Part shown: positions 12,800-35,409 of the stretch, one piece after another | How the letters are laid out: every line of letters begins with the position of its first letter | Position numbering within the stretch: the first letter of the stretch is position 1 | Assembly: GCF_900105675.1 (NCBI RefSeq) | Contig: NZ_LT629786.1 | Coordinates: forward strand, 3,410,001 to 3,474,000 | From: Pseudomonas synxantha | GTDB taxonomy: Bacteria; Pseudomonadota; Gammaproteobacteria; Pseudomonadales; Pseudomonadaceae | Direction of reading: 5' to 3' | Length of the DNA: 64,000 nucleotides | The notes under the pieces: model-generated | Told to the model about the DNA's origin: nothing | What the model saw: only the letters and a program-made list of their open reading frames with translations | Database searches by the model: none | Translations under genes and position numbers: made by a program

Positions 12800-13624
12800 T
12801 TATTGGGCAATAAACCTCAGCGGAATTTCTTTCAATAGGTTCCGCTCTGCAAGCTCATACTCGCCTTCCTTGGTCAGCCTATGCAGCAGCGCCTCTTTGA
12901 GCCGGTAAAAGTCATAGCCACTGCGCTGACGCGGACGGGGAAGATCAATATCAACAATATCCTTGATCCGGCCAGGACGGGGTTGCAGCACTACCACCCG
13001 ATCCGCAAGGTATATCGCCTCCTCCACATCATGGGTCACCAGTACCGTGGTAACACGATAGCGTTGGCGGATGTTCAACAGTTCGTCTTGAATCTGCTGC
13101 CGAGTGAGTGCATCCAATGCACTGAACGGCTCGTCGAGGAGTAAAAGACGAGGACTGGTCACCAGGCCTCGGGCAATGGCAACGCGTTGTGCCATACCGC
13201 CAGACAGCTGGTGGGGATATGCCCGGCTGAATTTCTCCAGGCCTACCAACTCGACCATTGACTCGATCCTCTTACGCTTTGCCTCTGGGTCAAGCACTGT
13301 ATTGCCCAGTGCCAGACCGATATTTTCGCTGACGTTAAGCCATGGAAATAGTCGGTGCTCTTGGAAAACAATTCCACGGCCACTGCCAACTCCTTCCACC
13401 GGCCGACCATCAATGCTGATGTTTCCACTGAATGCTCTGTCCAGGCCAATCAACAGTCGCAGCAGCGTGGACTTTCCGCATCCGCTGGCACCCACAATGG
13501 CGACGAACTCACCGTCGGCGATATCCAGGCTCACGTCCTGTATGGCCTGGAAGTCTCCGTCTTCGAGCTTGAACACTTTGCTTACGTGACTGAAACGGAC
13601 GACGGGATCTGCCGCGGTTTTCAT
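12800..13624 (-). CDS. atsC: ABC transporter ATP-binding protein, sulfonate/sulfate-ester type
   Basis: This 274-residue ATPase of the nitrate/taurine/sulfonate (SsuB-like) class has Walker A GASGCGKST near residue 50. The Q-loop is in GIVFQEHRLFPWL, the signature is LSGGMAQRVAIARGL, Walker B is LLLLDEPFSALDALTR and the H-loop is VLVTHDVEEAIYLADRV. Its ATG overlaps the permease stop by four bases, so it is the second gene of a permease-ATPase operon. It would power import across the inner membrane. The pairing with a double-length permease matches the AtsB-AtsC arrangement of Pseudomonas sulfate-ester uptake; the symbol rests on that arrangement and is tentative. Other SsuB-like substrates (sulfonates, taurine) remain possible. 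Confidence 0.72.
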   Translation of the reverse strand: MKTAADPVVRFSHVSKVFKLEDGDFQAIQDVSLDIADGEFVAIVGASGCGKSTLLRLLIGLDRAFSGNISIDGRPVEGVGSGRGIVFQEHRLFPWLNVSENIGLALGNTVLDPEAKRKRIESMVELVGLEKFSRAYPHQLSGGMAQRVAIARGLVTSPRLLLLDEPFSALDALTRQQIQDELLNIRQRYRVTTVLVTHDVEEAIYLADRVVVLQPRPGRIKDIVDIDLPRPRQRSGYDFYRLKEALLHRLTKEGEYELAERNLLKEIPLRFIAQ

Positions 13625-15219
13625 TGATGTCTCCAGCGCGTCGCGCTCTTTTCAAGTATCTGTCCGAGGCTGTTCAGCGTGGCCCCCGTCAAACCGATAA
13701 GTATCATGCAACTGATAATCTGATCGGAGCGCAATAACTGCTGGGCCCCGATCATCAGACTGCCGATGCCGCCATTGGAAGGCATGAAATATTCCGCACC
13801 GATGGTGCCCAGCCAGGCGTAGATCATCCCGAGGCGCAAGCCACTGAAGATGGCGGGCGCCGCGCCGGGCAGGATCAGGCACCGCATACGTTTATAGGCG
13901 GTCAACTGCAGTACCCGCGAAGTCTCATGCAAGTGTTCCGGCAGATGAGCGACTCCACGGTACGTGGCAATAAACAAGGGGAAAAATGCAGCCATTGCCA
14001 CAAATGCCCATTTGGCGGCTTCACCCAATCCGAACCATGCCGTCAGCAACGGCACCCAGGCGAAAATCGCGATCTGGCGCAACGCCCCCAGACTGGCGCC
14101 CAGCAATCGTTGGGCACGAGCAGAGACACCCAGCAGTAATCCCACCACCACACCCAGCGTACCGCCCAGGACGAAGCCACCCAGCGTGCGCCCCAACGTC
14201 ATGCCAAGTGCCGCGGGCAGTTGCCCGTTTGCCAAACCGTGCAGCAGGGTTAGCACCACTTGCCCAGGGGAAGCCATCGACTGCGGATTCAACCAGCCTT
14301 GCCAGCTGCCGGCTTGCCAAACAGCGATCAGTGCCAACGGAAGCAGCCAGGGAATCAGCCATTGCTGCGTCGAATGGTGGCGGCCGGGCTTCAGCTCGGC
14401 CAGCGCAGGATGGGGCCAGAATACCCAACGTCGGTCGATCCAACTGATGCCACTATCCATGCTTACGCCAATGATGCCGATCAACACGATGCAGACGAAC
14501 ACGATATCCAGCATGAATAGCTGACGGGCCCAGACCATCAAGTAGCCTATGCCTTCGCTTGAGGCCAGGAGTTCGACAGCGAGGAGTGATGACCAGCCTG
14601 CGGACAATGCCAACCGCACGCCAGCCATGAGGGAAGGCGCCGTCGCCGGGATAATCACGCGGCGTATGAGCGACAGCCTGGACAGTCCCATGACCGATGC
14701 CAGCTCTCTCAGCGTTGGTTGTGCATCCCGTACCCCAACCAAGGTGTGCAGCGTAACGGGCACCACGACCGCCTTGATCAGAACGGCGATTTTCAGCCAC
14801 TCGCCAATACCCAGGAAGATCATCAGCAAGGGTATCCATGCCAGCGTAGGAATCTGGGCCAGGGCCGTGAAGGTCGGGAGTACCAGTCGCTCGGCGATAT
14901 GGCTTGCCCCCAGCCACGCACCCAGCACTGCGCCCGTGATAACGCCAGCGACAAGGCCCAGCATCAACCGACCCAGACTGATCGCCAGGTGGGTCCAGAG
15001 TTCGCCTTGGGCAAGTTCAACTGCACTTTGCCAGACTAGCGCAGGTGCCGGGAGGATCTGCTCGCTCATCCAATGCCGCTCGCTGGCGACCCACCACAAC
15101 ACGAATATCGCCAAGGGCACCAGCCACGGTTGCACGCGCCTGGCTGATATCAACATCAGGCTGCGGAGAAATCGGGGTTTCGCCCGTTGCGTTGGATGGC
15201 CGTAGGTGTTGGATATCAT
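13621..15219 (-). CDS. atsB: ABC transporter permease, two fused permease domains
   Basis: This 532-residue protein is about twice the usual 260-280 residues of SsuC/TauC. It contains two complete BPD_transp_1 domains. Each has an EAA loop: the first near SRLSLIRRVIIPATAPSLMA and the second near QLTAYKRMRCLILPGAAPAI. Roughly twelve membrane segments are expected, so one polypeptide may supply both transmembrane halves of the importer. ATG at 15219 has AGG upstream; in-frame starts further upstream lack support and lie in the promoter region. The fused form is characteristic of AtsB from the sulfate-ester cluster of pseudomonads, which is why the symbol is proposed. Its gene overlaps the ATPase gene downstream and diverges from the exported esterase. 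Confidence 0.72.
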   Translation of the reverse strand: MISNTYGHPTQRAKPRFLRSLMLISARRVQPWLVPLAIFVLWWVASERHWMSEQILPAPALVWQSAVELAQGELWTHLAISLGRLMLGLVAGVITGAVLGAWLGASHIAERLVLPTFTALAQIPTLAWIPLLMIFLGIGEWLKIAVLIKAVVVPVTLHTLVGVRDAQPTLRELASVMGLSRLSLIRRVIIPATAPSLMAGVRLALSAGWSSLLAVELLASSEGIGYLMVWARQLFMLDIVFVCIVLIGIIGVSMDSGISWIDRRWVFWPHPALAELKPGRHHSTQQWLIPWLLPLALIAVWQAGSWQGWLNPQSMASPGQVVLTLLHGLANGQLPAALGMTLGRTLGGFVLGGTLGVVVGLLLGVSARAQRLLGASLGALRQIAIFAWVPLLTAWFGLGEAAKWAFVAMAAFFPLFIATYRGVAHLPEHLHETSRVLQLTAYKRMRCLILPGAAPAIFSGLRLGMIYAWLGTIGAEYFMPSNGGIGSLMIGAQQLLRSDQIISCMILIGLTGATLNSLGQILEKSATRWRHQ

Positions 15220-15438
15220 GATTAACCTGAGGGGCGGATAGCGGGCTATTGTCCGCTGTGTGGCTGACCGTCCGGCAAGCGCAAACAGCGAATAATTTTT
15301 ATGCGTGTGATGCATTGGATCGCACGCTGCGAGCGAGGCAACAATGCCTGCATCAACCATTAATGGGGGAGCCTTATAATCACGTGCCCCCTGCGTAGTG
15401 AAAGACTTTCTGGGCATAGCGTGCATCCGCTGGGGAAT
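15220..15438. promoter_or_regulatory. divergent promoter region, permease/esterase
   Basis: This 219-base gap separates the two divergent start codons. TTATAAT at 15374-15380 is a possible -10 box for the esterase. No obvious long palindrome was found. Regulation by sulfur supply is expected from the gene content but cannot be shown here. Confidence 0.4.
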
Positions 15439-16449
15439 ATGAACTTTATCAAGTCCTGCAGATGCTTAAGCTACGCAACAATGATTGGTCTGCCCGTTGT
15501 CTGCTGCCCGGCACTGACCTATGCCTCGCAGTTCAGTACGTCGACAGCATTTTCCACCCAAGGTATCGGTGTCGCCAGCAAGGTGCAGTTAACCGTTCAA
15601 GAGGTTTCATCACCGCGCACGTTCACGCATGGTGTCACCCGTCTTACCGACATCGTGTACGCAACGCCTGATGGTCACCGACCTTTGACGCTGGATCTTT
15701 ACCTGCCTCAACGGCCTGTCGGCCACCGTCCGCTGATTGTCTATGTGCATGGTGGAGGCTGGTCCAGCGGACATTCACGGGTAGCCGGGGCCTTCGAAGA
15801 CTTTCCGGCCGTGCTCGCGCGTTTTGCGGCACAAGGCTACGTCGTCGCCTCACTGAATTATCGGCTCAGTGCAGAGGCTGCATTTCCATCAGCCCTTGAG
15901 GATGTACGCACCGCCGTTGAGTGGCTGCAAGAAAGGCATCGGGATTACGGCGTCGATCCAAGCCGAATGGCGATTTGGGGCAGCTCGGCCGGCAGTCAGC
16001 TTGCCGCGCTTGCCGCACTTGACTGTAATCACTCGGCCAATCGAACCGCACCGTGCGCCAAGGTGCTCATCAGTTGGTTCGGTATATTCGATTTTTCAAC
16101 CCTGGTGAAAGACCTGCGGTTCGCGGCCATCATTCAGGCCTCTCGAAGATACCTGCACTGCCCAGACGGTCCATGTGCCGCTGCGACTCTGAACGCGGCG
16201 AGTCCGATCAACCATATTGGCAAGTCGGCACCGTCGGTGCTGTTGATTCATGGCATGGCCGACCAGGTAGTCCCCAGCCAGCAATCCGAAGCCATGGCGC
16301 AAGCACTCCAGCGCCAGGGGGTACAGGCGACGTTGCTGCTTTTGCCGGACGTGAGTCACAGCTTTGTCGGCAAAGATCAGATCGCCACCCGAGCGGCTAA
16401 TTACGCAGCGCTGGAGGCAACGGCGCAGTTTTTGGGTGAGCATCTCTAG
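15439..16449 (+). CDS. exported alpha/beta hydrolase (esterase/lipase, BD-FAE-like)
   Basis: This is a 336-residue serine hydrolase. A hydrophobic N terminus ending around PALTYAS suggests Sec export to the periplasm. The oxyanion motif HGGGWSSG is at about residue 110 and the nucleophile elbow GSSAGS at about 183. The acid is likely in HGMADQVVP and the histidine in DVSHSFVG near the C terminus. This is the hormone-sensitive lipase / acetylxylan-esterase-like pattern (BD-FAE). ATG at 15439 is preferred to an upstream GTG. In this cluster it could remove ester groups (acetyl, feruloyl or methyl) from an oligosaccharide, which is inference. The last 53 bases overlap the convergent MFS gene. 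Confidence 0.78.
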   Translation: MNFIKSCRCLSYATMIGLPVVCCPALTYASQFSTSTAFSTQGIGVASKVQLTVQEVSSPRTFTHGVTRLTDIVYATPDGHRPLTLDLYLPQRPVGHRPLIVYVHGGGWSSGHSRVAGAFEDFPAVLARFAAQGYVVASLNYRLSAEAAFPSALEDVRTAVEWLQERHRDYGVDPSRMAIWGSSAGSQLAALAALDCNHSANRTAPCAKVLISWFGIFDFSTLVKDLRFAAIIQASRRYLHCPDGPCAAATLNAASPINHIGKSAPSVLLIHGMADQVVPSQQSEAMAQALQRQGVQATLLLLPDVSHSFVGKDQIATRAANYAALEATAQFLGEHL

Positions 16450-17614
16450 GCAACCAAAGCGCAAGGACGCCAAGGAGTGGCAGGCAGCTTGCGCAGGTGA
16501 ACGTTGCGACGATTCCCCAGTGATCCGACATCACGCCCAAGCCTGCGGCGGCGATGCCACTGATTCCGAACGTCAGGCCAAAGAAGGCGCCGGCCACCAA
16601 GCCAATCCTGCCGGGTACCAAGTTCTGGGCCATCAGCAGGATTGCAGCGAACGCCGACGCTATGACGATCCCGATCACTATTGACAACCCGATCGCCACC
16701 GCCAGGGGGGCGTGAGGCAGCCATAGCGCAAAAGGACAGGCTCCCAGGATGGAAAGTGTAATGACCGGACGCATCCCCAGTCGATCAACCAGTGGGCCGC
16801 CGAGTAACGTGCCAGCGGTGATGGCCAGCAGAAAAACAAACAGCAATATCTGCGCCTGCGCAATAGTGACGGCAAAACGCTCGATCAAAAAGAAGGTGTA
16901 GAAGTTGGCAATACAAGCCAGATAGATGTATTTGGAGAGCAACAGCAGCGTCAGCAACAATAGTGCCTTGATTTTTTTTCCACGGCTGAGCGTGGCCAGC
17001 GAAGCGCTCGAAAAGCGCACCGAAGGAATGTGTGAGCGGCTGATCTGCAGGGCTCTACGCAGTAGCAACAGACCGCATACCGCCAGACCTGCCAAGCACA
17101 ACGCCATGTGCTTGATGGGCATGATGAGCAGTGTCGCCAACAGTAGCGGCGCGACCGCCGACCCAATGTTTCCGCCCAGTTGAAACACCGATTGCGCCAA
17201 CCCCAGGCGGCCCTCCGAGGCCGCGCGGGCGGCACGCGACCCTTCAGGGTGAAAGATCGACGAGCCTAAACCCACGGCGGCTGCAACCCACAGGAAATCG
17301 GTGAATCCATCGGCAAAGGCGAGCAACGTCATCGCGACGATCATGCACATCATCGCCCAGGGCAACAGCCTGGGGCTGGGTCGATGGTCGGTATACCAAC
17401 CCACGACCGGTTGGCACAGCGAACCGATCAGATGAAACATCAGCGTGATCAACCCCAATTGCGAATAGGACAGTTGAAAACGTATTTGCAGCTCAGGGTA
17501 GAGCGAAGGCAAGACGGCCTGGAAAAGATCGTTGAGGCTATGGGCAACCGCGATGAGCCAGAGTGCAGGAGCCAGGCGAGCAGGGCTGGAAGCAATAGAA
17601 GTTGAGGGGATCAT
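16397..17614 (-). CDS. MFS transporter, fosmidomycin-resistance (Fsr)-like
   Basis: This 405-residue inner-membrane transporter has about twelve hydrophobic segments. The Fsr-like N terminus is LIAVAHSLNDLFQAVLPSLY, followed by the loop GWYTDHRPSPR and the segment GSSIFHPEGSRAAR that is typical of this subfamily. Fsr relatives export fosmidomycin or other small compounds; here it may export a breakdown product of the scavenged compound or a toxic by-product. It is convergent with, and overlaps, the esterase gene, and divergent from the binding-protein operon. The start at 17614 lacks a strong ribosome site. Confidence 0.85.
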   Translation of the reverse strand: MIPSTSIASSPARLAPALWLIAVAHSLNDLFQAVLPSLYPELQIRFQLSYSQLGLITLMFHLIGSLCQPVVGWYTDHRPSPRLLPWAMMCMIVAMTLLAFADGFTDFLWVAAAVGLGSSIFHPEGSRAARAASEGRLGLAQSVFQLGGNIGSAVAPLLLATLLIMPIKHMALCLAGLAVCGLLLLRRALQISRSHIPSVRFSSASLATLSRGKKIKALLLLTLLLLSKYIYLACIANFYTFFLIERFAVTIAQAQILLFVFLLAITAGTLLGGPLVDRLGMRPVITLSILGACPFALWLPHAPLAVAIGLSIVIGIVIASAFAAILLMAQNLVPGRIGLVAGAFFGLTFGISGIAAAGLGVMSDHWGIVATFTCASCLPLLGVLALWLPRDAHPKTAPLPPALRN

Positions 17615-17739
17615 GGGGATGGCAGAAAGAGCGAGCGGAGTCGGCAGTAGAGCCCATCTTCCTGATCGCGCGCCAATGCATTCTGCTCATCTTTTTTTTG
17701 CGCATTGCACATAACCGTTAGAAACCTTTCTGGTGCCGG

Positions 17740-17766
17740 CTTATATCTTTATAGAATATAAATAAG
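17740..17766 (+). promoter_or_regulatory. AT-rich imperfect palindrome ahead of binding-protein operon
   Basis: The site begins CTTATATCTTTATAG and ends ATATAAATAAG, with CTTAT/ATAAG arms. It stands about 100 bases upstream of the binding-protein start. Similar AT-rich stretches precede tonB (25775-25820) and the receptor fragment (28262-28297). A CysB-like or LysR activator site or a promoter is plausible, but not proven. Confidence 0.4.
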
Positions 17767-17864
17767 TGGTTTCGGTATTTACTGATTGGGTTTGTAGTGT
17801 GGTTAAACGTCGCCGTGCAAGCCAGTTACACCGCTGGCTGATCCTCACGGAGTCGGAAATCTTG

Positions 17865-18884
17865 ATGTCGTCGCGTCCCCATAAAGTTGTCTCCCTCCTA
17901 GGCCTGGGACTTGTCCTGGGTACACTGGCCTTCAGTACTGCGCAGGCGGACGAGCTGCAACTCAACATTGCGGTCTCGGATATCGGTGCCGGTGGGAAAC
18001 CTGCCGGTGGCGGTCTGGTCGATGTCATCCACTCGCAACAACGACTGGAAAAGGCACTGAGCGCCGATGGTGTCACGGTCAACTGGCACTTTTTTAAAGG
18101 CGCGGCACCGCTGATCAATGAGTCCTTTGCCAACGGCCAGGTGGATCTCGCCTACCTTGGAGATCTGGGCGGCATTGTCGGTAAGTCCGGCGGGCTGGAT
18201 ACCCATGTCGTTGCGGTCGCGGCACGTGGCGTTGCGCACTATCTCGCCGTGCCTCCGGGTTCCTCGATTCATACGATGGCGGACCTGAAAGGCAAGCGGG
18301 TCGGACTGTTTCGAGGTACCGCCGCCCAGCTTTCGTTTATTGGTGCGCTGCGCACTGCGGGCCTCACCGAGAAAGACCTCAGTGTCATCAACCTGGATTT
18401 TGCCGCGGCCAGTGCCGCGCTAGCTGCCAAACAAATCGACGCCACCTGGGGAGGCGCGAATGTGCTCGCCGTGCGAGACCGTGGCCAGGCACAAGTGCCA
18501 GTTTCCACGCGCACCCTCGGCGGTGCAGGCGAGCTTGCCGGGCTGGTTCTGGTCTCAGGTCGCTTGATGAGCGAGCACCCGGATTGGGTACGCAGAATCG
18601 TTGAGATCCAGCGAGAAGCTTCAGCCTGGGCGAGCGCCGCCGAAAACCGCGATGCCTATATCCAGTTGCTCGCTGATCAGGCGGCATATCCAGCCAGTCT
18701 GCTGCGTGCGGACCTGGAGGGGGCTCCGGACTTATCGGTGTTGTTGTCTGCGGAGTTGGATCCCCCTTTTGTTGAACGCCTCAGGCAAGCCGTCACTACA
18801 GCCAAAGAGGCTCGATTGATCCGCCGCGACATCGATGTTGATCAATGGTTGGCACCGCAATTCTTGCAACAGACCACCCCCTGA
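17865..18884 (+). CDS. atsR: periplasmic substrate-binding protein of SsuA/AtsR-type ABC transporter
   Basis: This 339-residue protein has a signal peptide (VVSLLGLGLVLGTLAFSTAQA). The two-lobed fold of the nitrate/sulfonate/taurine group follows, with the markers NGQVDLAYLGDLGGIVGKSG, MADLKGKRVGLFRGTAAQL and QIDATWGGANV. ATG at 17865 is preferred to in-frame upstream starts because it opens the signal peptide. It would capture the substrate in the periplasm and hand it to the permease/ATPase at 12800-15219, which lack a binding protein of their own. It is first in an operon with the TonB-dependent receptor, lyase-like and DUF6250 genes. The symbol follows the proposed Ats assignment and is tentative. 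Confidence 0.72.
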   Translation: MSSRPHKVVSLLGLGLVLGTLAFSTAQADELQLNIAVSDIGAGGKPAGGGLVDVIHSQQRLEKALSADGVTVNWHFFKGAAPLINESFANGQVDLAYLGDLGGIVGKSGGLDTHVVAVAARGVAHYLAVPPGSSIHTMADLKGKRVGLFRGTAAQLSFIGALRTAGLTEKDLSVINLDFAAASAALAAKQIDATWGGANVLAVRDRGQAQVPVSTRTLGGAGELAGLVLVSGRLMSEHPDWVRRIVEIQREASAWASAAENRDAYIQLLADQAAYPASLLRADLEGAPDLSVLLSAELDPPFVERLRQAVTTAKEARLIRRDIDVDQWLAPQFLQQTTP

Positions 18885-18954
18885 GTCTTCCCATTTACCC
18901 CTGCTGACAGCGCCGCGCTGTCAGCCTGGCCGAACTCGCACGCTGGAAACGCCC

Positions 18955-21201
18955 ATGAAACTTTATCCTCAGCAAAAATACCTCCCTTTGGTCACCAGCA
19001 TCGCGCTGGGTCAGGTACTGGCCTATGTGGCGACGGGGGCCCTGGCCGACACCGATCCCCAGTTGGCCACTGTACACGTTGAGGGCGCACGTCAGGCGGA
19101 CCCGCAGCAGCCGCCCACCTCGACTCAAAAGTTGAGCGGCAAGACACTCGAGCAGCAAGGGGTTTATCGATTGGAGGATCTGCAGCAACTGGCGTCCGGT
19201 CTTGATGTGGCAACCGTCGATCCTTATGACACTCGCCTGACCATTCGCGGAGTGGGCGATGGCGGTGGCACTGAAATCAATATCGGCATGCCAAGCGGTG
19301 TGGGGCTGTTTCTCGATAACGTTTACCTCAGTCGCCCGGGCATGATGTCCAATGATCTGCTGGACATCGAAAGTGCCGATGTATTGAGCGGGCCGCAGGG
19401 AACGCTCTATGGTTTCAACACCACCGGCGGTGCCATCGATATCCATAGCCGCAAGCCAACTTTCACCCCTGAAGGCTCCCTGCGCCAGTCCATCGGGCAG
19501 CGTGGTTACACCCAGACGCAGGCAATGTTTTCCGGTCCATTGACCGACACCCTGGCTGGGCGCATCAATCTGTCCCATACCGAGAAAGGCGGCTACATCA
19601 AAAATGAGTACACCGGGCACGAACTGGGCGGCAGCAACCAGGACGGGATGCGCGGGCAATTATTATGGCAGCCGGCAGATGACTTCAGCCTGCGCATCAT
19701 TGCCGACCTCAACAAGTCGACCAGCTACCCGGTGTCGGTGCTCGATAAAGCCAATGCGATCAACGGCACCGTCCCCTATCTGAATCGCGCAGCCCTGGTA
19801 GGAGCCCATGTTGTCGGCGGTGGCTATAAGGTTAACACCGACGATGAAAACGAGGCCTATGTCCGCCAGGGAGGGCTTTCCGTGCAAGCCGACTGGACAC
19901 TTGCTGACGGCTATAATCTGAGGACGGTTTCGTCGTACCGCTATTTTGGCTACCAACCCAACAATACCGATGGGTTGGATGTTCCATTGTTTGCCGGCAG
20001 CGGTGGCGATGTGCGTGATCGCGTCTGGTCGCAGGACATTCGCCTGGACTCCCCCAAGGGCGAACATTTCGACTATGCGTTGGGAGCAACCTACTGGGGC
20101 GAGGACCTTAATACATTTGCCCACGATTACTATGCGTCTGGCAGCCAGACAACCCAGTACTACGGCACAAACGCTAACACCGGCAAACTGGTCAAGCGCT
20201 GGGGTGAAATCAACGATACGGTGTTCTCGCTCTACGCCCAAGGGACTTGGCATGTGACCGACGAGTTCGACATTACCGGTGGTATTCGCAACAGCTACGA
20301 GAAGAAGTCCGGGTCATTCCGTCGAGCCAACAAGAACGATTTTGACTCCGGCAAGCTTAATCAGTACAGCCAGCTTCCGGCGGCGATGCTCAACTTCAAT
20401 TACTACTTCATGCCCAATCTGCAGGGCTACCTGACGATCGCGTATGGCGAAAAATCGGGTGGGCTGAACGTCTCGTCCGGCGCAGCCGGCAAAGCAGGCC
20501 TCGGCAGTTTGTTGATTGATCCGGAAAGCACCCGGGGCGGTGAGTTAGGTTTGAAGAGCCATTGGCTGGATAACCTTATCTCGGTTGATGCCGCGTTGTT
20601 TTGGTCCGAAGTGCGCAAGTTCCAAACCACCGCCTACGACCTCGAAAGTCAGAGCAGTTATTTGATCAACGCCGGAACCATGCGCTCCCGCGGCCTGGAA
20701 ACCAACCTGACGCTCAAGCCACTGGACGGTTTGACCGTCAATTTCAACGGTACGCTGCTGGACAACAAGTACCTGGACTTCAAAGACGGTAAATGCCCGG
20801 CCGAAGTGTCGCTTGCGCCGAAGCCGCCCGCATCCTGCGACATGAGTGGCGAACGGGTATTCCGCTCGCCCAAGGTCACTTACAACCTGACCAGCCGATA
20901 TGAGTGGCAAACGTTCGGGGCCTTGCAGGCGTTCGTGTCCGGTCGTTACTCCTATCGCACCTGGTCGTACGGCACGGTCGATAACTCGCAATTCACACGG
21001 GTACCGGGTTACGGATTGCTGAGCCTGTCGACCGGGCTCGGCGGCAAATACGGTGACGGCAACTGGAACGCTTCTTTGTGGGCCAACAACGTTACCGACA
21101 AGCGCTATTACCGCACGCTGAATACCGGCGATTACGGTTCTGCGTTTGGCGTGCTAGGTGAACCACGTACCGTAGGTATGACCCTCGGCTATGACTTCTA
21201 G
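18955..21201 (+). CDS. TonB-dependent outer membrane receptor
   Basis: This 748-residue receptor has a signal peptide ending near TGALAD. The plug domain (about 45-160) contains LTIRGVGDGG, ESADVLSGPQGTLYGFNTTG and GAIDIHSRKPTF. A 22-strand barrel follows and ends in the expected aromatic residue (MTLGYDF). The lack of siderophore-type context and the 70-base spacing from an SsuA/AtsR-like binding-protein gene point to uptake of a sulfur-containing organic compound or oligosaccharide rather than iron. The following lyase-like gene starts 12 bases after the stop. It probably draws energy from the tonB-exbB-exbD operon at 26013-28031. Confidence 0.85.
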   Translation: MKLYPQQKYLPLVTSIALGQVLAYVATGALADTDPQLATVHVEGARQADPQQPPTSTQKLSGKTLEQQGVYRLEDLQQLASGLDVATVDPYDTRLTIRGVGDGGGTEINIGMPSGVGLFLDNVYLSRPGMMSNDLLDIESADVLSGPQGTLYGFNTTGGAIDIHSRKPTFTPEGSLRQSIGQRGYTQTQAMFSGPLTDTLAGRINLSHTEKGGYIKNEYTGHELGGSNQDGMRGQLLWQPADDFSLRIIADLNKSTSYPVSVLDKANAINGTVPYLNRAALVGAHVVGGGYKVNTDDENEAYVRQGGLSVQADWTLADGYNLRTVSSYRYFGYQPNNTDGLDVPLFAGSGGDVRDRVWSQDIRLDSPKGEHFDYALGATYWGEDLNTFAHDYYASGSQTTQYYGTNANTGKLVKRWGEINDTVFSLYAQGTWHVTDEFDITGGIRNSYEKKSGSFRRANKNDFDSGKLNQYSQLPAAMLNFNYYFMPNLQGYLTIAYGEKSGGLNVSSGAAGKAGLGSLLIDPESTRGGELGLKSHWLDNLISVDAALFWSEVRKFQTTAYDLESQSSYLINAGTMRSRGLETNLTLKPLDGLTVNFNGTLLDNKYLDFKDGKCPAEVSLAPKPPASCDMSGERVFRSPKVTYNLTSRYEWQTFGALQAFVSGRYSYRTWSYGTVDNSQFTRVPGYGLLSLSTGLGGKYGDGNWNASLWANNVTDKRYYRTLNTGDYGSAFGVLGEPRTVGMTLGYDF

Positions 21202-21213
21202 AGAACGGCACCG

Positions 21214-23964
21214 ATGAACAATTTTCTCCTGGATCGACGCAGTTTCATGCGTGCCAGTGCCGTGATGGCCGGCACCCTACCCTTCGCTAATAGCGCAATG
21301 GCGTCCACGTCCACGTCGACCTCGGCCAACATGCCGGAAACCCAACTTGGCTGGTTGGGCCAGGACGCACCATCCTCTTTCACTGGCGTGACCTGGGGTA
21401 CGCCATGGCCGCAGGGAAAGGTCGCGGCGGGCAGTCAGTTCCAGATACGTGGCAATGACGGTTCCTTGCCATTGCTGCAAACCTGGCCGCTGGCCTATTG
21501 GCCCGATGGCAGTTTGAAGTGGACCGCTCATGCCATCGGGCCGCAGGCCAGCGCCGCTGCGAATTACGATCTGCGTCCAATCTCTGCCTCGGGCCCTGAA
21601 CCCGCCTCCCTGGTCAAGGAGCAGGATGGCGAAATCCACATCGACACCGGCTTACTGCAGTGCGTGATCCCTCGCCACGGGACGGTCCTGATCCGTAGCG
21701 TCAAGCGATTGGGGCGGCCTGGGTTAAAGAACGGTCACTTGGTTTTGCAGGTCCAAGGCGACCCGGACCAGGCATCAAGCACGGTGAGGCAGTACCTAAG
21801 CCAAGTAGAGCGTGTCGTGGCAGAGCAGACCGGACCGGTGCGCGCCGTGATCGCTTTGCACGGTACACACCGGCGGCTAGATGGTGATGAAACACTGATC
21901 CCTTTCATCGTGCGCGTTTACCTGTACCTAAACAGCGAGACCCTGCGTGTGATTCACACGTTGGTGATCGACGCTGACGAAACGCATGACTTCATCAAAG
22001 GGGTCGGGCTGCGTTTCGATACGCCGCTAGATGCACCGTTACATGATCGGCATGTGCGTTTCGTCGGTGCCAATGGAGGCTTATTCGCCGAAGCTGTGCG
22101 GGGCCTTACGGGGTTGCGGCGCAATCCTGGCGACGCGATCATGCGCGCGCAGGTCGAAGGACGAAGCACCGGCCCCGTGTCAGGATTTGCGCCTGAAGTC
22201 GCCGATCGTCTGCAATATATCCCGGCGTTTGGCAGCTATCGATTGCTTCAGGCTCACCCAGACGGCTTTCATATCAGCAAACGTACCTCGTCCGGACAAA
22301 GTTGGCTGCACAGTGCCACCGGGGAGCGGGCAGCAGGTGTTGGTTACTTGGGGACACCGCAAGGCGGCGTGGTCTTCGGTCTGCGTAATTTCTGGCAAAG
22401 CTATCCAGCACAACTGGATATCGAACGGGCGCACACCGAACAAGCGCAAATCACCCTGTGGTTATGGGCTCCACAAGCCGCACCAATGGATATGCGCGCC
22501 TACCACGACGGCTTGGGAGAAGACAGTTTCATCAAACAGCGTGAAGCACTGGAAATCACGTACGAAGATTACGAGCCAGGCTTTGGTACCTCCATGGGAG
22601 TCGCACGTACCAGCGAATTAGAACTGCAATTCGTGGTGGCAACGCCAAGCGGATCGCAACTGCAGCAAATAGCACAACGGATTCAAGATCCACCGTTGCT
22701 GCTGGTATCCCCTGAGCGTTTGCATGCTGCCGCTGTCTTCGGACCCGATTGGGCGCCGCCAAAGACGGATAACGGCCGCAAACAGGAAATCGAGGCGCAA
22801 CTGGCTTGGTATTTCGAGTTCTATCGCAACGAAGTCGCGCAGCGTAAGTGGTACGGTTTCTGGGACTATGGCGATGTCATGCACACCTACGATGAGCAAC
22901 GCCACGTCTGGCGTTATGACGTCGGCGGGTTTGCCTGGGATAACTCCGAACTGAGCACTGATTTGTGGCTGTGGTTTTACTTTTTACGAACAGGCCGTCA
23001 GGACGTGTTCCGCATGGCCGAAGCGATGACTCGTCACACTGGCGAGGTTGACGTCCATCACATCGGTCGCTTTGCCCCGCTGGGTTCACGGCATAACGTG
23101 CAGCACTGGGGCGACAGCGCCAAACAATTGCGTATCTCCACTGCCGCCAATCGCCGATTCCTTTATTACCTGACGGCGGATGAGCGTGTCGGTGACCTGC
23201 TGGATGAGCAAGTGGAAGCCTTGCGGACGCTACGCAACGTCGTACCAGGTCGCAAGATCGGTCAACAGCGTGATGTTCGGAACGGCTACGCCAGCATTAC
23301 CTTTGGCACGGATTGGGGCGCTATTGCCGCCGCCTGGTTGACGGATTGGGAGCGTAGCGGCGACCCCGCCGTTGCTCGGCGCCTGCTTAACAGCATGGAG
23401 TCGATTGCCGCGCAGCCCCACGGTTTTTTCACAGGGTTGGGCACTATGGAACTGGACACCGGCCGCTTCGACATCGACCAAAGCGGCAAGCTATCCGTAT
23501 CTCATTTGTCCGCGGTGTTCGGGCTTGCGGAAATTTGCAGTGAACTGCTGCAACTGTTGCCTTCGGCAAACTTTGAACGGGCCTGGTTGGACTATTGCCG
23601 CTTATACAATGCGCCGCTGGCAGAGCATCAAAAAGCTCTCGGGGAACCCCTCCCCAACTTGAACCTGGCGCAAGGGCATGCTCGTTTGACGGCTTTTGCC
23701 GGTTATCGATTGGGCGATGCAGCCTTGCAGGACCGTGCCTGGAAAGAGTTCTTCGCTGGAGCTGGCGGCATTCCGCAGCCCAACCGCAATCTGCATAAGG
23801 TGGTGCAGCCGAACTACCTGTACCCACTGGATGAACCCGACCCAGTGTCGGTCATTGATGAACACTCCGGTACATCCGCCACCGCCAACCTGTCAACCAA
23901 TGCTGTCGCTCAATGGGGCTTGACCGCTATTGCATTGCTGGCCTTTGAGCAGGCCGAGCACTGA
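21214..23964 (+). CDS. Tat-exported exo-rhamnogalacturonan lyase-like (YetA/PL26-like) protein
   Basis: This 916-residue protein has a twin-arginine-type signal at the N terminus (DRRSFMRASAVMAG, then SAMAS) and is therefore exported folded to the periplasm. The first part is a beta-sandwich-rich region (GVTWGTPWPQGKV, LQTWPLAYWPDGSLKWTA). The second half is a helical toroid-like region with WYGFWDYGDVMHTYD, VGGFAWDNSELSTDLWLWFY and EVDVHHIGRFAPLGSRHNVQ. This three-part pattern is what I know from the YetA / PcRGLX exo-rhamnogalacturonan lyase family, which acts on rhamnose-uronate polymers. Catalytic residues have not been mapped. It stands between a TonB receptor and a DUF6250 gene and probably trims the imported oligosaccharide. 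Confidence 0.7.
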   Translation: MNNFLLDRRSFMRASAVMAGTLPFANSAMASTSTSTSANMPETQLGWLGQDAPSSFTGVTWGTPWPQGKVAAGSQFQIRGNDGSLPLLQTWPLAYWPDGSLKWTAHAIGPQASAAANYDLRPISASGPEPASLVKEQDGEIHIDTGLLQCVIPRHGTVLIRSVKRLGRPGLKNGHLVLQVQGDPDQASSTVRQYLSQVERVVAEQTGPVRAVIALHGTHRRLDGDETLIPFIVRVYLYLNSETLRVIHTLVIDADETHDFIKGVGLRFDTPLDAPLHDRHVRFVGANGGLFAEAVRGLTGLRRNPGDAIMRAQVEGRSTGPVSGFAPEVADRLQYIPAFGSYRLLQAHPDGFHISKRTSSGQSWLHSATGERAAGVGYLGTPQGGVVFGLRNFWQSYPAQLDIERAHTEQAQITLWLWAPQAAPMDMRAYHDGLGEDSFIKQREALEITYEDYEPGFGTSMGVARTSELELQFVVATPSGSQLQQIAQRIQDPPLLLVSPERLHAAAVFGPDWAPPKTDNGRKQEIEAQLAWYFEFYRNEVAQRKWYGFWDYGDVMHTYDEQRHVWRYDVGGFAWDNSELSTDLWLWFYFLRTGRQDVFRMAEAMTRHTGEVDVHHIGRFAPLGSRHNVQHWGDSAKQLRISTAANRRFLYYLTADERVGDLLDEQVEALRTLRNVVPGRKIGQQRDVRNGYASITFGTDWGAIAAAWLTDWERSGDPAVARRLLNSMESIAAQPHGFFTGLGTMELDTGRFDIDQSGKLSVSHLSAVFGLAEICSELLQLLPSANFERAWLDYCRLYNAPLAEHQKALGEPLPNLNLAQGHARLTAFAGYRLGDAALQDRAWKEFFAGAGGIPQPNRNLHKVVQPNYLYPLDEPDPVSVIDEHSGTSATANLSTNAVAQWGLTAIALLAFEQAEH

Positions 23965-24003
23965 CCTATTGGCCTTCAAATCATCTGTTCAGAGACTGTT
24001 CTC

Positions 24004-24654
24004 ATGCCTCACCCGAGCCTTTTATCGGCGACTGCTGTCGAGTTTCAGCCCAGCGGTATCCGCGATGACTTTCCCGCGCTTGACCCTCAGCGCTGGCGCA
24101 TCGAAACCGAGCAACCCAATGACTCCCGCGTGTTTGTCGAATCCAGCAGACTGATTATGGACACCCGCGCCGGAATGACCGTATGGCTGCAACAGCGCCT
24201 GGCCGGTGCCTACCGAATCGAGTTTCTGCGACAGGTGCTGGTGGCCGGCCAGGCTAACGATCGGCTGTCCGACATGAATATTTTCTGGGCGGCCCACGAT
24301 CCCGGTGAGCCAGGCTTACATTCGCGGGATGGCGTGCTGGAATCCTACGACTCAATGGCCGCCTATTACGTGGGCATGGGGGGAAACACCAACACCACCA
24401 CGCGCTTTCGCTATTACGACGGGAGCGGCAATCGCCTGCTGCTGGGGGAGCGGCTGGACGCCGCTCATTTGCTGGAGGTCGGACGTATTTATCGGATCCG
24501 CATTGACGTGAGTTCTAAATCAACTGCGTACTGGGTCGATGGTGAGCCTGTGTTTGAACAACGCCTGGATGGACCTCCCGCTCCTGGCTATTTCGGCTTT
24601 CGCTCAGTGTGGTCGCGTCAGGCAATCAGCCGCTTCAGTGTGCAAGCCCTGTAA
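24004..24654 (+). CDS. DUF6250 domain protein (beta-jelly-roll-like)
   Basis: This 216-residue protein has the DUF6250 hallmarks NIFWAAHDP, ESYDSMAAYYVGMGGNTNTT and TRFRYYDGSG, and ends with a YFGFRSVWSR segment. The fold is concanavalin-like, and the family often accompanies or is fused to YetA-like lyases. No signal peptide is visible. The start at 24004 is in the same frame as the lyase and 13 codons after its stop, so export could have been through a fused form in an ancestor. It is the last gene of the operon and overlaps the LysR gene on the other strand by 20 bases. The function is unknown; binding or cleavage of uronate polymers is a guess from context. Confidence 0.7.
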   Translation: MPHPSLLSATAVEFQPSGIRDDFPALDPQRWRIETEQPNDSRVFVESSRLIMDTRAGMTVWLQQRLAGAYRIEFLRQVLVAGQANDRLSDMNIFWAAHDPGEPGLHSRDGVLESYDSMAAYYVGMGGNTNTTTRFRYYDGSGNRLLLGERLDAAHLLEVGRIYRIRIDVSSKSTAYWVDGEPVFEQRLDGPPAPGYFGFRSVWSRQAISRFSVQAL

Positions 24655-25606
24655 GGGGGAGTTCAGCGAGCTCGCCCTGGGGTGGGTTCGCTTCCAGCAT
24701 CTGCATCGCAGCGTCCGCCTCGTGGAAGGCGTCAATCAGGTTCTGAGCCAAAAAAGACACCTTATAGCCGGAGCGGCTGATAATACCGTAATGCGTAAAG
24801 AACTCCGGAGCCAACGGATCCAGTCCCCGGACATTCAGAACCTTGAGCCCCTGACGCAAATAGGGGTTGTTGTGGCTGACGTTGGTGGTACCGATGGCAT
24901 CCGAATGCTGGATAACGCTGATCAGACTATAGCCGCTGTCACATTCAATACTGGTCTGGAAATCCGGCCGCCCGCTTAATTCCACCAATGCCTTGCGCAG
25001 GTTGGGCGGACGTACCGTACCGGCCAACGGATAGCTGAACAATTGCTCGACGGTGATTTCATCCTGCGATGCCAGAGGGTGTTCGCTGCGGCAGCAGAAA
25101 CCCCACTGATGATGACTGAGCAGTTCCACACGATAGTCCGGATCGTGCTCGAAATTGCGTGCGTCCGCGACGAAGAACTCACACTCCTCGGCAAGCAGCC
25201 GCTGACCCAGGGCCTGCCAGTTATCCACATGAAAACGCAGTCTAACCTTGGGCAGTCGCCGCGTGAACACCCCCAGCGCCTGCGGCATTAGCCATGCGGC
25301 CGGTGCCGGCCCGCAGGCAAACGACAACTCACCAGCTTCATGCTCATTGAATTGGCGTACCGAATTGATCAGCTCATGAGCATTACCGATCATCTTCCGC
25401 GCATGTTCCAGCACGATCAGACCTTTCTTGGTCGGTGCCAGATTTCGCGTCCGGTCGATCAATCGGGTGCCAAAACTTTGTTCCAGTGCCTGGATGCTGC
25501 GACTAAAAGCCGATTGGGAAATATTGACTGATTGCGCGGCGAGGCCAAAGTTTCGGTACTCCACCAAAGCAATGAAGTGCCGCAGTTGACGTAGATCCAG
25601 ATGCAT
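24635..25606 (-). CDS. LysR family transcriptional regulator
   Basis: This 323-residue regulator has an N-terminal helix-turn-helix (FGLAAQSVNISQSAFSRSIQ) and the linker IDRTRNLAPTKKG. The effector domain covers about 90-300, with typical motifs SFACGPAPAAWLMPQ and GYSLISVIQHSDAIG. It lies between the receptor-lyase operon (convergent) and tonB-exbBD (divergent), so it is a good candidate to control one or both. A LysR gene beside a TonB receptor and Ats genes is also remembered from the P. aeruginosa ats region. The inducer is unknown. Confidence 0.85.
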   Translation of the reverse strand: MHLDLRQLRHFIALVEYRNFGLAAQSVNISQSAFSRSIQALEQSFGTRLIDRTRNLAPTKKGLIVLEHARKMIGNAHELINSVRQFNEHEAGELSFACGPAPAAWLMPQALGVFTRRLPKVRLRFHVDNWQALGQRLLAEECEFFVADARNFEHDPDYRVELLSHHQWGFCCRSEHPLASQDEITVEQLFSYPLAGTVRPPNLRKALVELSGRPDFQTSIECDSGYSLISVIQHSDAIGTTNVSHNNPYLRQGLKVLNVRGLDPLAPEFFTHYGIISRSGYKVSFLAQNLIDAFHEADAAMQMLEANPPQGELAELPLTGLAH

Positions 25607-26012
25607 TTAAGACAATGACTCGGTAAGTGTGTGGAGAAGAAGGTAACTGTGACCGAACGTCTGGCGCTTTAAAAAGAACTAAAAGCTTCAATAATGGTTT
25701 TTTAGGAATAAGGGGTAGGCATGAGCGGTATTTGATCGGAGCCATGTACGCTCTGACATAGGTGTCTGATCTACCACAATATATAGATTGCGAATCAAGC
25801 ATAAATATTTTGCGATTCGTGCATCTTCCCGGCAAGACCCGGTGTGACTGGCTTATGCCTATTGTGGTCGATAGCCAGCGAATTTTTTATTTCACTTCAA
25901 CTCAGCGCTAAGCGAAATTGCCGCACATTGAAGGCGGAGTAGTGTGTCTTTTTGTCCGCCAAAGGCCATTGTAGAGCGATTCAAATGATCAACAAGTTGT
26001 CAGGATTGTTAA
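25607..26012. promoter_or_regulatory. 406-base divergent promoter region, LysR/tonB
   Basis: No gene is seen. The region contains GATTGCGAATC at 25789-25799, a GATT-N3-AATC palindrome with T-N11-A-like features. About 30 bases later there is a related TTTTGCGATTCG. The 25775-25820 part is AT-rich. LysR binding here is plausible. A ribosome site (AGGA) precedes the ATG at 26013. Confidence 0.45.
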
Positions 26013-26819
26013 ATGATTAGCACTAAGGGGGAGACCGTGCAAGCGCTGCGACCACTAGATCCAAGCGAGCTGCTTGACCTTAGCCGGGTCTTTTGGAAGC
26101 CCTTGGAACTGTCGCGTCTACACAGCACGCCCAAGCGTGTCTTGAGTCGCAGCGAAGGGATCTTGCTGGGGGGGGTCGCCCTGGTGCTGCATGGCGCGGT
26201 GATTTTGTGGGTCAACCAGACACCGCCGCCGCTGCCCATAGTGCCGCCGGAAATTCCACCGATGACCATCGAGTTTTCTCAGCCCGCGCCGCCCGTGGTG
26301 CAAACATCGCCACCGCCGCCCGAGCCGATCGTGCAGCCCGTGGTCGAGCCACCACCACCGGTGGAGGACGAACTGGCGGTCAAGCCGCCACCGCCCAAAC
26401 CGATTCCCAAGCCCAAACCTGTGGTCAAGCCGGTGCCGAAGCCGGTCGCCAAACCGGTGGAGCAACCGCCCGCGCCACCGGCGCCGCCACAACCGGTCGC
26501 CGCCCCGGCACCACCCGCGCCACCCGCGCCAAAACCGGTAACCCCGGCCTCGGCCAGCGCGGGCTACCTGAAAAATCCGGCACCGGAATACCCGTCGCTG
26601 GCGATGCGGCGCGGCTGGGAAGGCACGGTGCTGTTGCGGGTGCATGTGTTGGCCAGCGGTAGGCCCGGTGAGGTCCAGATCCAAAAAAGCAGCGGTCGCG
26701 ATCAACTCGACGACGCCGCACGGGCTGCGGTCAAGCGCTGGAGCTTTGTCCCCGCTAAACAGGGTAATGACCCTATAGACGGCTGGGTCAGCGTGCCGAT
26801 CGACTTCAAGATCAAGTAA
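26013..26819 (+). CDS. tonB: TonB energy transducer
   Basis: This 268-residue protein has one membrane anchor (ILLGGVALVLHGAVILWV, about 50-67). A long proline-rich periplasmic spacer follows, with Glu-Pro and Lys-Pro repeats (about 70-190). The C-terminal TonB domain contains YPSLAMRRGWEGTVLLRVHV, the SSGRDQLDDAARAAV helix and WSFVPAKQ. A second possible start, GTG at 26037, has a stronger ribosome site (GGGGGAG). It is the first gene of tonB-exbB-exbD. It transmits proton-motive force to TonB-dependent receptors, probably the one encoded 5 kb upstream. The order resembles P. aeruginosa tonB2-exbB1-exbD1, which lies near an ats cluster. Confidence 0.9.
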   Translation: MISTKGETVQALRPLDPSELLDLSRVFWKPLELSRLHSTPKRVLSRSEGILLGGVALVLHGAVILWVNQTPPPLPIVPPEIPPMTIEFSQPAPPVVQTSPPPPEPIVQPVVEPPPPVEDELAVKPPPPKPIPKPKPVVKPVPKPVAKPVEQPPAPPAPPQPVAAPAPPAPPAPKPVTPASASAGYLKNPAPEYPSLAMRRGWEGTVLLRVHVLASGRPGEVQIQKSSGRDQLDDAARAAVKRWSFVPAKQGNDPIDGWVSVPIDFKIK

Positions 26820-26905
26820 TTCCATTGCGAACGTTTATACCGCGAGCCACCTGACAAAAGGCGCATCGCTACCACCGATTTAATGCCTTGTTGGAGAGCC
26901 TGACC

Positions 26906-27628
26906 ATGAATCTGATTGCATCCCCCTTCGAATCCATCGAACACGCCGTCATCTGGCTGTTGATTCTCTTCTCTATCGCGACCTGGGGCCTGGCCCTGCT
27001 CAAGGGCGTGCAGTTCACCCGCCTGAAGAGCCAGGATCGCAAGTTCCATAAACACTTCTGGGCCGCCTCCAGCCTCGATTCCGCTGCTGAATTGGTCCAT
27101 AGTCAACCGGGCGCCGCGGCTCGCGTCGCACTGGCCGGTTACGCCGCGATCCAGGTCAGCGACCAGCCGAGCACTGACCTCAGTCAGGCGATCAACCATC
27201 AGGACCGTCTTGAACGTGCCCTGCGCCAGCAGATCGTGCGTGAGCGCCGCTCGCTGGAAAGTGGGCTGGCGATTCTCGCCAGCATCGGCAGCACATCGCC
27301 CTTCATCGGCTTGTTCGGTACCGTCTGGGGGATCATGTCAGCCTTGAAAGGCATCAGTGCCGCGGGCTCGGCCAGCCTGGAAACCGTGGCCGGGCCGATC
27401 GGCGCGGCGCTGGTCGCCACCGGCGTGGGCATCGCCGTCGCGGTGCCGGCGGTGCTGGTTTACAACTACTTCCTGCGACGCCTGAAACTGACCGCCGCCG
27501 ACCTCGACGACTTCGCCCACGACTTTTACAGCCTGGCGCAGAAACATTCGTTCCGTGTGCTGCTGCACCCGGCGCAGAAAAAATCCGGCGCCACCGCGAC
27601 CGCGCAGAAAGTGAAGGAGGCGTCCTGA
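26906..27628 (+). CDS. exbB: ExbB/TolQ/MotA family proton channel
   Basis: This 240-residue inner-membrane protein has a first segment near AVIWLLILFSIATWGLALL. The conserved ExbB core is IGSTSPFIGLFGTVWGIMSA, then GPIGAALVATGVGIAVAVPA at about residues 135-190. ATG at 26906 has GGAG upstream. It forms the pentameric stator that, with ExbD, uses the proton gradient to energise TonB. It lies 86 bases after tonB and one base before exbD, within one operon. Confidence 0.92.
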   Translation: MNLIASPFESIEHAVIWLLILFSIATWGLALLKGVQFTRLKSQDRKFHKHFWAASSLDSAAELVHSQPGAAARVALAGYAAIQVSDQPSTDLSQAINHQDRLERALRQQIVRERRSLESGLAILASIGSTSPFIGLFGTVWGIMSALKGISAAGSASLETVAGPIGAALVATGVGIAVAVPAVLVYNYFLRRLKLTAADLDDFAHDFYSLAQKHSFRVLLHPAQKKSGATATAQKVKEAS

Positions 27629-27629
27629 G

Positions 27630-28031
27630 ATGGCCTTTTCCACACAAGACAGCGATGAAGTGCTGAGCGAGATCAACGTCACGCCACTGGTGGACGTGAT
27701 GCTGGTGCTGCTGGTGGTGTTCATCGTCACCGCACCCCTGCTGACAAACGCCATCCCGATCAACCTGCCCAAGACCGAAGCCGTTGCTCCGGTCGAGCAA
27801 AAGGACCCGTTGGTGGTGAGCATCGACGCCGCCGGCAAGCTGTTCATCAACAAGGACGAGATCCAGCCGGACTTGCTGGAGTTCAACCTGACGGCAGCCA
27901 AGGCCAAGGACCCCGACGTGCGCGTGCAACTGCAGGCGGATGACGGGGTGAACTATGGCGAAGTTGCGCGGGCTATGGCGTCGATCGAACGCGCCGGCAT
28001 CACCAAGCTGTCAGTGATTACCGCACGATAA
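27630..28031 (+). CDS. exbD: ExbD/TolR family proton channel subunit
   Basis: This 133-residue protein has the family N terminus (SEINVTPLVDVMLVLLVVFI), including the essential membrane Asp at about residue 25. The periplasmic domain ends in IERAGITKLSVITA. It completes the ExbBD proton motor. A strong terminator follows directly at 28048-28082, so the operon ends here and the receptor fragment downstream has its own promoter. Confidence 0.92.
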   Translation: MAFSTQDSDEVLSEINVTPLVDVMLVLLVVFIVTAPLLTNAIPINLPKTEAVAPVEQKDPLVVSIDAAGKLFINKDEIQPDLLEFNLTAAKAKDPDVRVQLQADDGVNYGEVARAMASIERAGITKLSVITAR

Positions 28032-28082: not shown

Positions 28083-28353
28083 GGGGTCCCTGACCGATGA
28101 TGCGTCACCTGCTCGCGATGGTCGTTAACGATGACGCGGGCTGCCTGAATGTCCGTGGATTGTTTTTCGGGATTGCGTGAAGTCCCTCTTTTTCGCTTGC
28201 TGCTCCAGCAGCACCCTCCCCGCACACGTGCTGTGCCCCCCAGCAAAAGCCATTCCAAAAAACAAATTAACCTATTGATATTTATAGATTTAATTTGATG
28301 GCGTATCGCTTGCGATGCTGTCCCCAATGCTTTCAAACCGGGGAACTAGACGT
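28083..28353. other. intergenic region with putative promoter for receptor fragment
   Basis: No gene is seen. The AT-rich segment 28262-28297 (ATTGATATTTATAGATTT) probably contains the promoter or activator site of the truncated receptor gene. A weak ribosome site (GGGGAA) precedes ATG at 28354. Confidence 0.4.
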
Positions 28354-34085: not shown

Positions 34086-34144
34086 AGCGACTCCACGAAA
34101 ATATGACGATGGAAAGCGTCCGGCAAAACGCCAGAGGCTCGCGG

Positions 34145-35377: not shown

Positions 35378-35409
35378 TCGCAGCTCCTGAAATCCTGGGT
35401 GGGCGTGTC

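Follow-up and report, generated by a model that had tools for sequence, protein, structure and literature searches.

The sulfate-ester (ats/sft) clusters of Pseudomonas carry genes for an AtsR-like substrate-binding protein (SBP), an AtsB-like permease, an AtsC-like ATPase, an SftR-like LysR regulator and an SftP-like TonB-dependent receptor (TBDR), together with an operator and, in some genomes, tonB-exbB-exbD. In Pseudomonas strain UW4 the cluster order is given as atsACBR-sftR-atsK-sftP (excerpt of PMC3596284), and in P. aeruginosa PAO1 the arylsulfatase gene atsA has been reported to be up more than 95-fold in sulfur starvation (excerpt of PMC12581299). Here, a block of twelve genes (positions 12800-28031) is described from a 64,000-nucleotide stretch of Pseudomonas synxantha DNA (RefSeq assembly GCF_900105675.1, contig NZ_LT629786.1; hereafter the window), which covers positions 3,410,001-3,474,000 of a genome of 6.84 Mb in one contig. 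Eight of the twelve genes (binding protein, fused permease, ATPase, TonB receptor, LysR, TonB, ExbB and ExbD) have ats/sft counterparts, and the operator is common to both. The block differs from the ats/sft cluster in that sulfatase and AtsK are absent and four genes without an ats/sft counterpart are present instead, coding for an exo-rhamnogalacturonan lyase of family PL26, a DUF6250 protein, a BD-FAE-type esterase and a major facilitator superfamily (MFS) carrier. On balance, the block appears to be a scavenging module of ats/sft type, self-contained and carrying a rhamnogalacturonan-I (RG-I) lyase as cargo. A pectin-cutting enzyme thus occupies the sulfatase's usual place, which suggests a possible link between pectin use and sulfur supply. 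The block genes are real and form one unit, and the gene set is not due to chance, since the same set recurs in Pectobacterium.

Sequence comparison shows the transporter, receptor, TonB motor, regulator and operator to be paralogous to their counterparts in the sulfate-ester (ats) system. Paralogues were searched for genome-wide with four genes (SBP, permease, receptor and LysR), and the ATPase was compared with ats loci only. For all four, the nearest own-genome paralogue lies in one separate ats cluster (L162, approximately 6,385,600-6,395,900), comprising an AtsB-like permease, an AtsR-like SBP, two LysR genes, a TauD-family oxygenase, a PF00884 sulfatase and a receptor; its gene content equals that of the UW4 cluster, as excerpted, with the addition of a second LysR. 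The AtsB-like fused double permease (13621-15219, minus strand; two BPD_transp_1 stretches) is 67% identical to the AtsB of this cluster (714 bits), the next paralogue standing at 39% and 158 bits. Its open reading frame (ORF) is open to 15426, and a protein of approximately 532 residues is preferred to the full ORF because alignments of close relatives begin at about residue 85-97 of the long ORF (residue 28 in one relative with internal stops), with a start codon available at about 15219; in most ats loci AtsB-like permeases are 526-535 residues long. The AtsR-like SBP of the SsuA family (17865-18884, plus strand) is 50% identical to the ats-cluster AtsR at 333 bits, with 65 bits for the next match. 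Its ORF opens at 17766 and the ATG at 17865 is probably the start; it matches TIGR01728 (3.7e-41) with 141 bits, below the cut-off of 163.5 and close to the 145 bits of the own ats-cluster SBP. The SftP-like TBDR (18955-21201, plus strand, ORF opening at 18835; Pfam Plug and beta-barrel) is 46% identical to the ats-cluster receptor (619 bits, next own-genome match 184 bits). The SftR-like LysR regulator (24635-25606, minus strand) is 56% and 42% identical to the two ats-cluster LysR genes, the third of 84 matches being at 27% and 75 bits.

The AtsC-like ABC ATPase (12800-13624, minus strand, 274 residues; Pfam ABC_tran 3.2e-34) is 64-69% identical to the ATPase adjoining the AtsB-like permease in all six other Pseudomonas ats loci compared, 56% identical to that of Pectobacterium, and 67% and 58% identical to two pieces of the own ats-cluster copy. 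This last gene (L162 6807-7606, minus strand) is split across two reading frames, so that the block ATPase may serve both clusters, unless the split is a sequencing error. TonB (26013-26819; TonB_C 2.9e-24), ExbB (26906-27628, ORF opening at 26888; MotA_ExbB 6.4e-33) and ExbD (27630-28031; ExbD 2.3e-30), all on the plus strand, have counterparts of the same type downstream of the ats-cluster receptor in three of the five regions examined, with identities of 69-74%, 85% and 89-92%, respectively; ExbB relatives at 89-94% are widespread in Pseudomonas. The Ats-like transport proposed in a preliminary description of this stretch is upheld by own-genome paralogy, by the shared operator and by a TonB motor of ats type. 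Prediction of SBP specificity from the sulfonate-contact residues of SsuA and TauA (excerpts of PMC3839906 and PMC6906117) was tried and rejected, there being no clean transfer; the YQK stretch of an own-genome SsuA-like protein differs in both lyase-linked and ats-linked SBPs.

An inverted-repeat search of the promoters gave nothing consistent, and reading of those promoters led to a shared 46-bp element. A weight matrix built only from nine sites in six ats loci has a consensus of approximately CCAATGCATT-N4-GAATA-N-TTTT-N2-ATGC-N5-TGCAT. With one locus left out at a time, both promoter sites of each ats locus were recovered as the top two (6/6), and in two ats loci outside the training set (L166 and L167) the top site lies in front of the SBP. 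The three best sites of the window are located in the three promoter regions of the block: the best (17671-17716; 20.5 bits) upstream of the SBP-TBDR-lyase-DUF6250 operon, the second (15274-15319) between the permease on the minus and the esterase on the plus strand, and a weak third (25783-25828) between LysR on the minus and tonB on the plus strand. Their scores were reached by 0, 0 and 1 of 300 dinucleotide shuffles, respectively, and no site stands out in seven control intergenic regions, where 73-199 of 300 shuffles reach the scores. The top site of the matrix, over both strands, lies 128-349 bp upstream of the SBP in 18 of 18 Pseudomonas and Pectobacterium lyase loci, which come from related species and so are not independent; this distance was counted from the aligned start of the SBP in some loci and from the receptor in G397 (P. 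typographi). In seven of seven control lyase loci from Paraburkholderia and Oxalobacteraceae, the best site in the corresponding place ranks 5-56. The idea of a general sulfur operator was rejected, since two loci of this genome that carry ssu-type genes score no better than -30.0 and -18.8. A near-identical helix, N[IL]SQSAFSRSIQALE, is present in the block LysR and in the receptor-side ats LysR. The site before the lyase operon is a putative operator with the features of a typical ats-type switch site. The 25783 site is unconfirmed by relatives, because the lyase loci of P. daroniae/dryadis (L020 and L021) have no good site at the tested stretches beside LysR and tonB.

The lyase is rare in the genus, with matches in 11 of 398 Pseudomonas genomes sampled, ten of them full-length including that of the window. 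In the eleventh (G073), a PL26 remnant of some 37-40 residues (L108 10130-10249, 75% identical) perhaps reflects loss of the module. An ats-type cluster is retained in this genome, and one of its ORFs looks, by eye, sulfatase-like. Receptor, lyase, DUF6250 and LysR occur together in all ten lyase-bearing Pseudomonas and are joined by the SBP in nine. In Pectobacterium, all six loci fetched have ATPase-permease-exbD-exbB-tonB facing SBP-receptor-lyase-DUF6250, plus LysR, and a gene-by-gene reading of one of them (L023) found this ten-gene set flanked by genes that are, by eye, seemingly unrelated. Permease and ATPase of the block's type lie near the lyase in only two of the ten Pseudomonas (the window and G356), the other eight having no permease nearby.

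In trees from which near-duplicates had been dropped, and in which ats rows were the only outgroup, the lyase-linked receptors of Pseudomonas, Pectobacterium, Oxalobacteraceae and Paraburkholderia fall on one side of a 100/100 branch, and the lyase-linked LysR proteins likewise form one group (100/100). The SBPs adjoining the receptor form a 12-row clade of Pseudomonas and Pectobacterium (100/98), and two further SBPs at the L020 and L021 lyase loci group with ats copies. Permeases of the block's type are mixed with ats copies without separation. Receptor, SBP and LysR therefore go with the lyase, whereas the permease can be exchanged. Presence counts, uncorrected for kinship, fit this picture of an exchangeable permease and an SBP tied to the lyase: an AtsB-type permease of at least 60% identity is present in 10/10 lyase-bearing Pseudomonas (the G397 match with internal stops) vs 6/20 comparison genomes (G001-G020), and the cognate SBP, at no less than 61%, in 9/10 vs 0/20. 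In nine of the ten lyase-bearing genomes, G356 being the exception, the AtsB-type permease has a PF00884 sulfatase no more than about 5 kb away. In L020 (3-3391) and L021 (244-4944), an ats-type SBP-permease-ATPase set stands directly upstream of the lyase module, that of L021 with its own LysR, and ats-type operator sites are found upstream of the module in both.

The lyase (21214-23964, plus strand) is full-length, with all three PcRGLX domains (PcRGLX_1st, 2nd and 3rd, best 4.3e-170) and an N-terminal twin-arginine motif (RR at 8-9). Residues 44-878 match PDB 5xq3 at 7.6e-224 and 749 bits. This entry, together with 5xqg, 5xqj and 5xqo, we take to be PcRGLX, the PL26 exo-rhamnogalacturonan lyase of Penicillium chrysogenum, a name drawn partly from Pfam titles. 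The two proteins are alike in three-domain homology; the block lyase differs in its twin-arginine signal and in its sulfur-type uptake surroundings. Polar residues invariant across 82 PL26 proteins (the window lyase and 81 others) are all present in the window lyase, by definition of the set, and in the PL26 alignment positions 785, 830 and 868 differ in Pseudomonas alone. From these comparisons the enzyme can be classed as a true PL26/PcRGLX protein of exo-rhamnogalacturonan type, so that the preliminary assignment to a YetA/PL26-like lyase is confirmed by the Pfam search and the PDB match.

The adjoining DUF6250 protein (24004-24654, plus strand) has a lectin-like jelly-roll fold, as viewed by VIA-align, and no obvious signal peptide; a sequence-profile search against PDB gave CBM66 matches only, all sub-threshold. 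The exported BD-FAE-type esterase, an alpha/beta hydrolase (15421-16449, plus strand; Pfam BD-FAE 1.9e-47), has a relative close to the lyase in several further Pseudomonas loci, two of which have it in pieces. In two Pseudomonas loci an esterase lies between DUF6250 and LysR, a place taken by another ORF in G149, where the LysR match has an in-frame stop. Relatives of the MFS carrier (16397-17614, minus strand; Pfam MFS_1 3.9e-27) are likewise found in several Pseudomonas lyase loci. This carrier is an addition to the earlier gene list, in which every named gene proved to be present at its given position (ORFs, Pfam and NCBIfam).

As had been noted, no sulfatase is present in the block: PF00884 has no match in the window, and all seven matches in the genome lie elsewhere. 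No block protein matches TauD, the family of AtsK-like dioxygenases, which has one match in the ats cluster of this genome. Domains of SsuD monooxygenase and SsuE reductase were not found among the block proteins (Pfam and NCBIfam), which sets the block apart from an ssu alkanesulfonate operon, with SsuD and SsuE beside the transporter; the genome has an ssu-like set at another place. The suggestion that desulfation takes place elsewhere is plausible, because the own-genome ats cluster holds a sulfatase and a TauD/AtsK-like oxygenase.

For a scavenging module of this kind, the SftR-like LysR would act at ats-type operators under sulfur limitation or substrate induction, and the SftP-like receptor, powered by TonB-ExbB-ExbD, would import RG-I oligosaccharides or conjugates. 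The PL26 lyase, exported by the twin-arginine route, would trim RG-I oligosaccharides in the periplasm, where DUF6250 may ride with it as a glycan-binding partner and the esterase may remove acyl groups. Small sulfate-bearing products would then be handed by the AtsR-like binding protein to the AtsBC importer, either the block's own or, in the eight of ten Pseudomonas without a nearby permease, presumably that of the ats cluster, and the ats-cluster sulfatase and AtsK-like oxygenase would free sulfate in the cytoplasm. If so, an RG-I lyase inside the sulfate-ester starvation regulon would feed the AtsBC importer. It is a tentative further step, and a doubtful one, that plant-associated gammaproteobacteria gain sulfur in this way from sulfate-bearing RG-I, or RG-I-bound aryl sulfates, of land plants; we know of no pectin-linked sulfate pool such as this would imply.

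The strongest alternative, though we give it distinctly less credence than the scavenging module, is that receptor, SBP, ABC importer, LysR and operator, all of Ats type, have been co-opted for uptake of the lyase product, the unsulfated, carboxylate-bearing unsaturated galacturonosyl-rhamnose, as carbon, with no role for sulfur. The lyase resembles an ordinary RG-I enzyme, and the receptor, the receptor-adjoining SBP and LysR form groups of their own. Moreover, PL26 and DUF6250 are found with RG-I enzymes in Bacteroidota and with carbon genes in Oxalobacteraceae. Bacteroidota loci resemble the block in having PL26, often with DUF6250, and differ in their neighbours, which among 75 proteins of 12 loci (Pfam) include SusD (6), GH88/105 (3), GH43 (3), GH2 (3) and PL11 (2), all among the 25 commonest of 96 families, as well as GDSL; ats-type parts were searched for in these loci and none was found. 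In Oxalobacteraceae, the order is receptor-lyase-DUF6250, often with lyase and DUF6250 fused, and the receptor is of the same group. These loci differ from the block in that the lyase-linked SBP type is absent, no ats-type SBP, LysR or operator was found in the flanks, and glycerate kinase (4) and sugar-diacid regulator (3) domains occur among 55 neighbouring proteins of six loci (Pfam). PF07470 hydrolases occur in Pectobacterium G398, along with two KduI-family matches of lower score that were read as KduI.

For the Pseudomonas carriers, however, the carbon route fares less well. The unsaturated uronyl hydrolase PF07470 (GH88/105), a mark of RG-I carbon-utilisation loci, is absent in 10/10 lyase-bearing Pseudomonas, so that the known carbon route looks incomplete; Pectobacterium has three matches. 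A KduI-family match, read from its score as IolB, is present in seven of the ten, and none in the other three. The search for pectinases covered two families, GH28, found in three of the ten, and GH78, found weakly in two. The eight Pseudomonas without a nearby permease would depend on that of the ats cluster, which is expected to be a starvation product, since atsA of PAO1 rises in sulfur starvation. Recruitment for carbon would also have to accommodate the retention of the ats operator.

Several findings nevertheless weigh against a scavenging module. In G397, lyase and receptor are present and the SBP is missing. The receptor group of the lyase loci serves PL26-DUF6250 in Oxalobacteraceae without an ats-type SBP or operator. 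Among 13 Pseudomonas and Pectobacterium lyases compared with 69 other PL26 proteins, no conserved position is swapped for another conserved residue. Two of the operator scores (L104, -2.0; L105, 0.3) are lower than the best chance site (1.8; next -6.7) in 70 non-gammaproteobacterial PL26 loci, and regulator and operator could have been inherited and since retuned to another inducer. In Pectobacterium G398, an arylsulfotransferase-like gene stands beside the ats-type permease in place of PF00884. No sulfated RG-I of land plants was found in a literature search. In favour of the module, sulfur amino acids are very scarce in SBP (0.65% Cys+Met), ExbB (0.42%) and TonB (0.75%), the mean over 28 other ORFs of the window, from a rough caller, being 3.1%; yet the content is just as low in 120 relatives of ExbB (mean 0.49%). 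Compared with Oxalobacteraceae, Cys+Met of the lyase is lower but not significantly so (P 0.077), and the receptor does not differ (P 0.49). A flavin monooxygenase lies within 10 kb of the lyase in three of ten genomes vs about 0.7 expected by hand reckoning, a weak enrichment that was not relied on. Comparison of lyase Cys+Met with all others (P 1e-6) is confounded by ancestry and was not used.

Thus, an importer of sulfur type stands in the block with an enzyme of carbon type, and the choice between the two readings turns on the ligand. Either the module reveals a source of sulfur that is sulfated and linked to pectin, or Ats-type importers prove able to carry uronate-rhamnose disaccharides, and both outcomes would change the reading of genes annotated as sulfonate/nitrate ABC transporters, soft-rot bacteria included.

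It is improbable that the receptor and SBP serve another ligand of their class, such as a metal chelate or a phenolic conjugate on pectin, with the lyase only loosening the wall. The best NCBIfam match of the receptor is TonB-siderophor, below cut-off, and the block has a feruloyl-esterase-like enzyme; however, the ats-cluster receptor likewise best matches TonB-siderophor, and it is in the ats cluster that the nearest paralogues within the genome lie. Use of an ulvan-like sulfated rhamnose-uronate polymer, the kind of substrate suggested in the preliminary description, is very improbable. That description combined Ats-like uptake with a lyase, which stands, and the co-occurrence of a rhamnose-uronate lyase and sulfate-ester-type transport had made ulvan attractive. 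The lyase is, however, squarely PL26, with no conserved change common to the gammaproteobacterial set, and PL26 of Bacteroidota lies by RG-I enzymes (PL11 and GH88/105). The sulfatases that stand beside the lyase in an ulvan utilisation locus are missing from the block, and the genome has no PF07470 hydrolase. The named lyase carriers are mostly plant-associated land bacteria. It is hardly credible that two unrelated operons merely happen to adjoin and that the transporter is a surplus copy of ats: the permease and ATPase are indeed not near the lyase in most Pseudomonas carriers, and the permease does not separate from ats copies, but the linkage of SBP, TBDR, lyase, DUF6250 and LysR in nine of ten, the ten-gene set of Pectobacterium with its seemingly unrelated flanks in L023, and the operator common to ats and lyase loci all oppose it, and a chance neighbourhood is contradicted by linkage kept across genera.

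Each part of the block is of a known family, and the combination is without a found description: a literature search covering few subscription papers found no account of ats-type uptake with a PL26 lyase. Tables of PMC4079955 include sftP, atsR, astB, ExbB and ExbD of Dickeya dadantii 3937 and Pectobacterium carotovorum WPP14 among predicted host-interaction factors, and by gene names and neighbouring feature numbers these look like the module described here. The source, as excerpted, gives them in tables only, alongside hypothetical proteins, with no lyase link seen and no word starting 'rhamnogalacturon' in the text. In the excerpt of PMC7843439, SftR and an atsR-atsBCA region of Pectobacterium versatile are described, which is not the block's module.

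A Pectobacterium ats-type cluster (L166 12931-14721, plus strand) encodes an arylsulfotransferase-like protein with a C-terminal thioredoxin domain. In one Paraburkholderia locus (L063 12950-20081), a TauD oxygenase, an NMT1-type SBP, ABC genes and a flavin monooxygenase, whose best match is SfnG, below cut-off, directly follow receptor and lyase; the proximity of this group to the lyase may be coincidence. Beside exbD in the window, the first 55 or so residues of an ORF at 28315-29418 (plus strand) resemble, by eye, a TonB-receptor leader and run in-frame into a fragment of a TraI_2 relaxase/helicase, after which comes a TraI_2_C piece at 29565-30065 (plus strand); these ORFs are perhaps the scar of a mobile element. 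Beyond them, a sodium:sulfate-symporter-type protein (30737-31540, minus strand) spans only about the first half of its family, and phosphoketolase, acetate kinase and zinc alcohol dehydrogenase genes lie in a row at 31590-36489 (minus strand).

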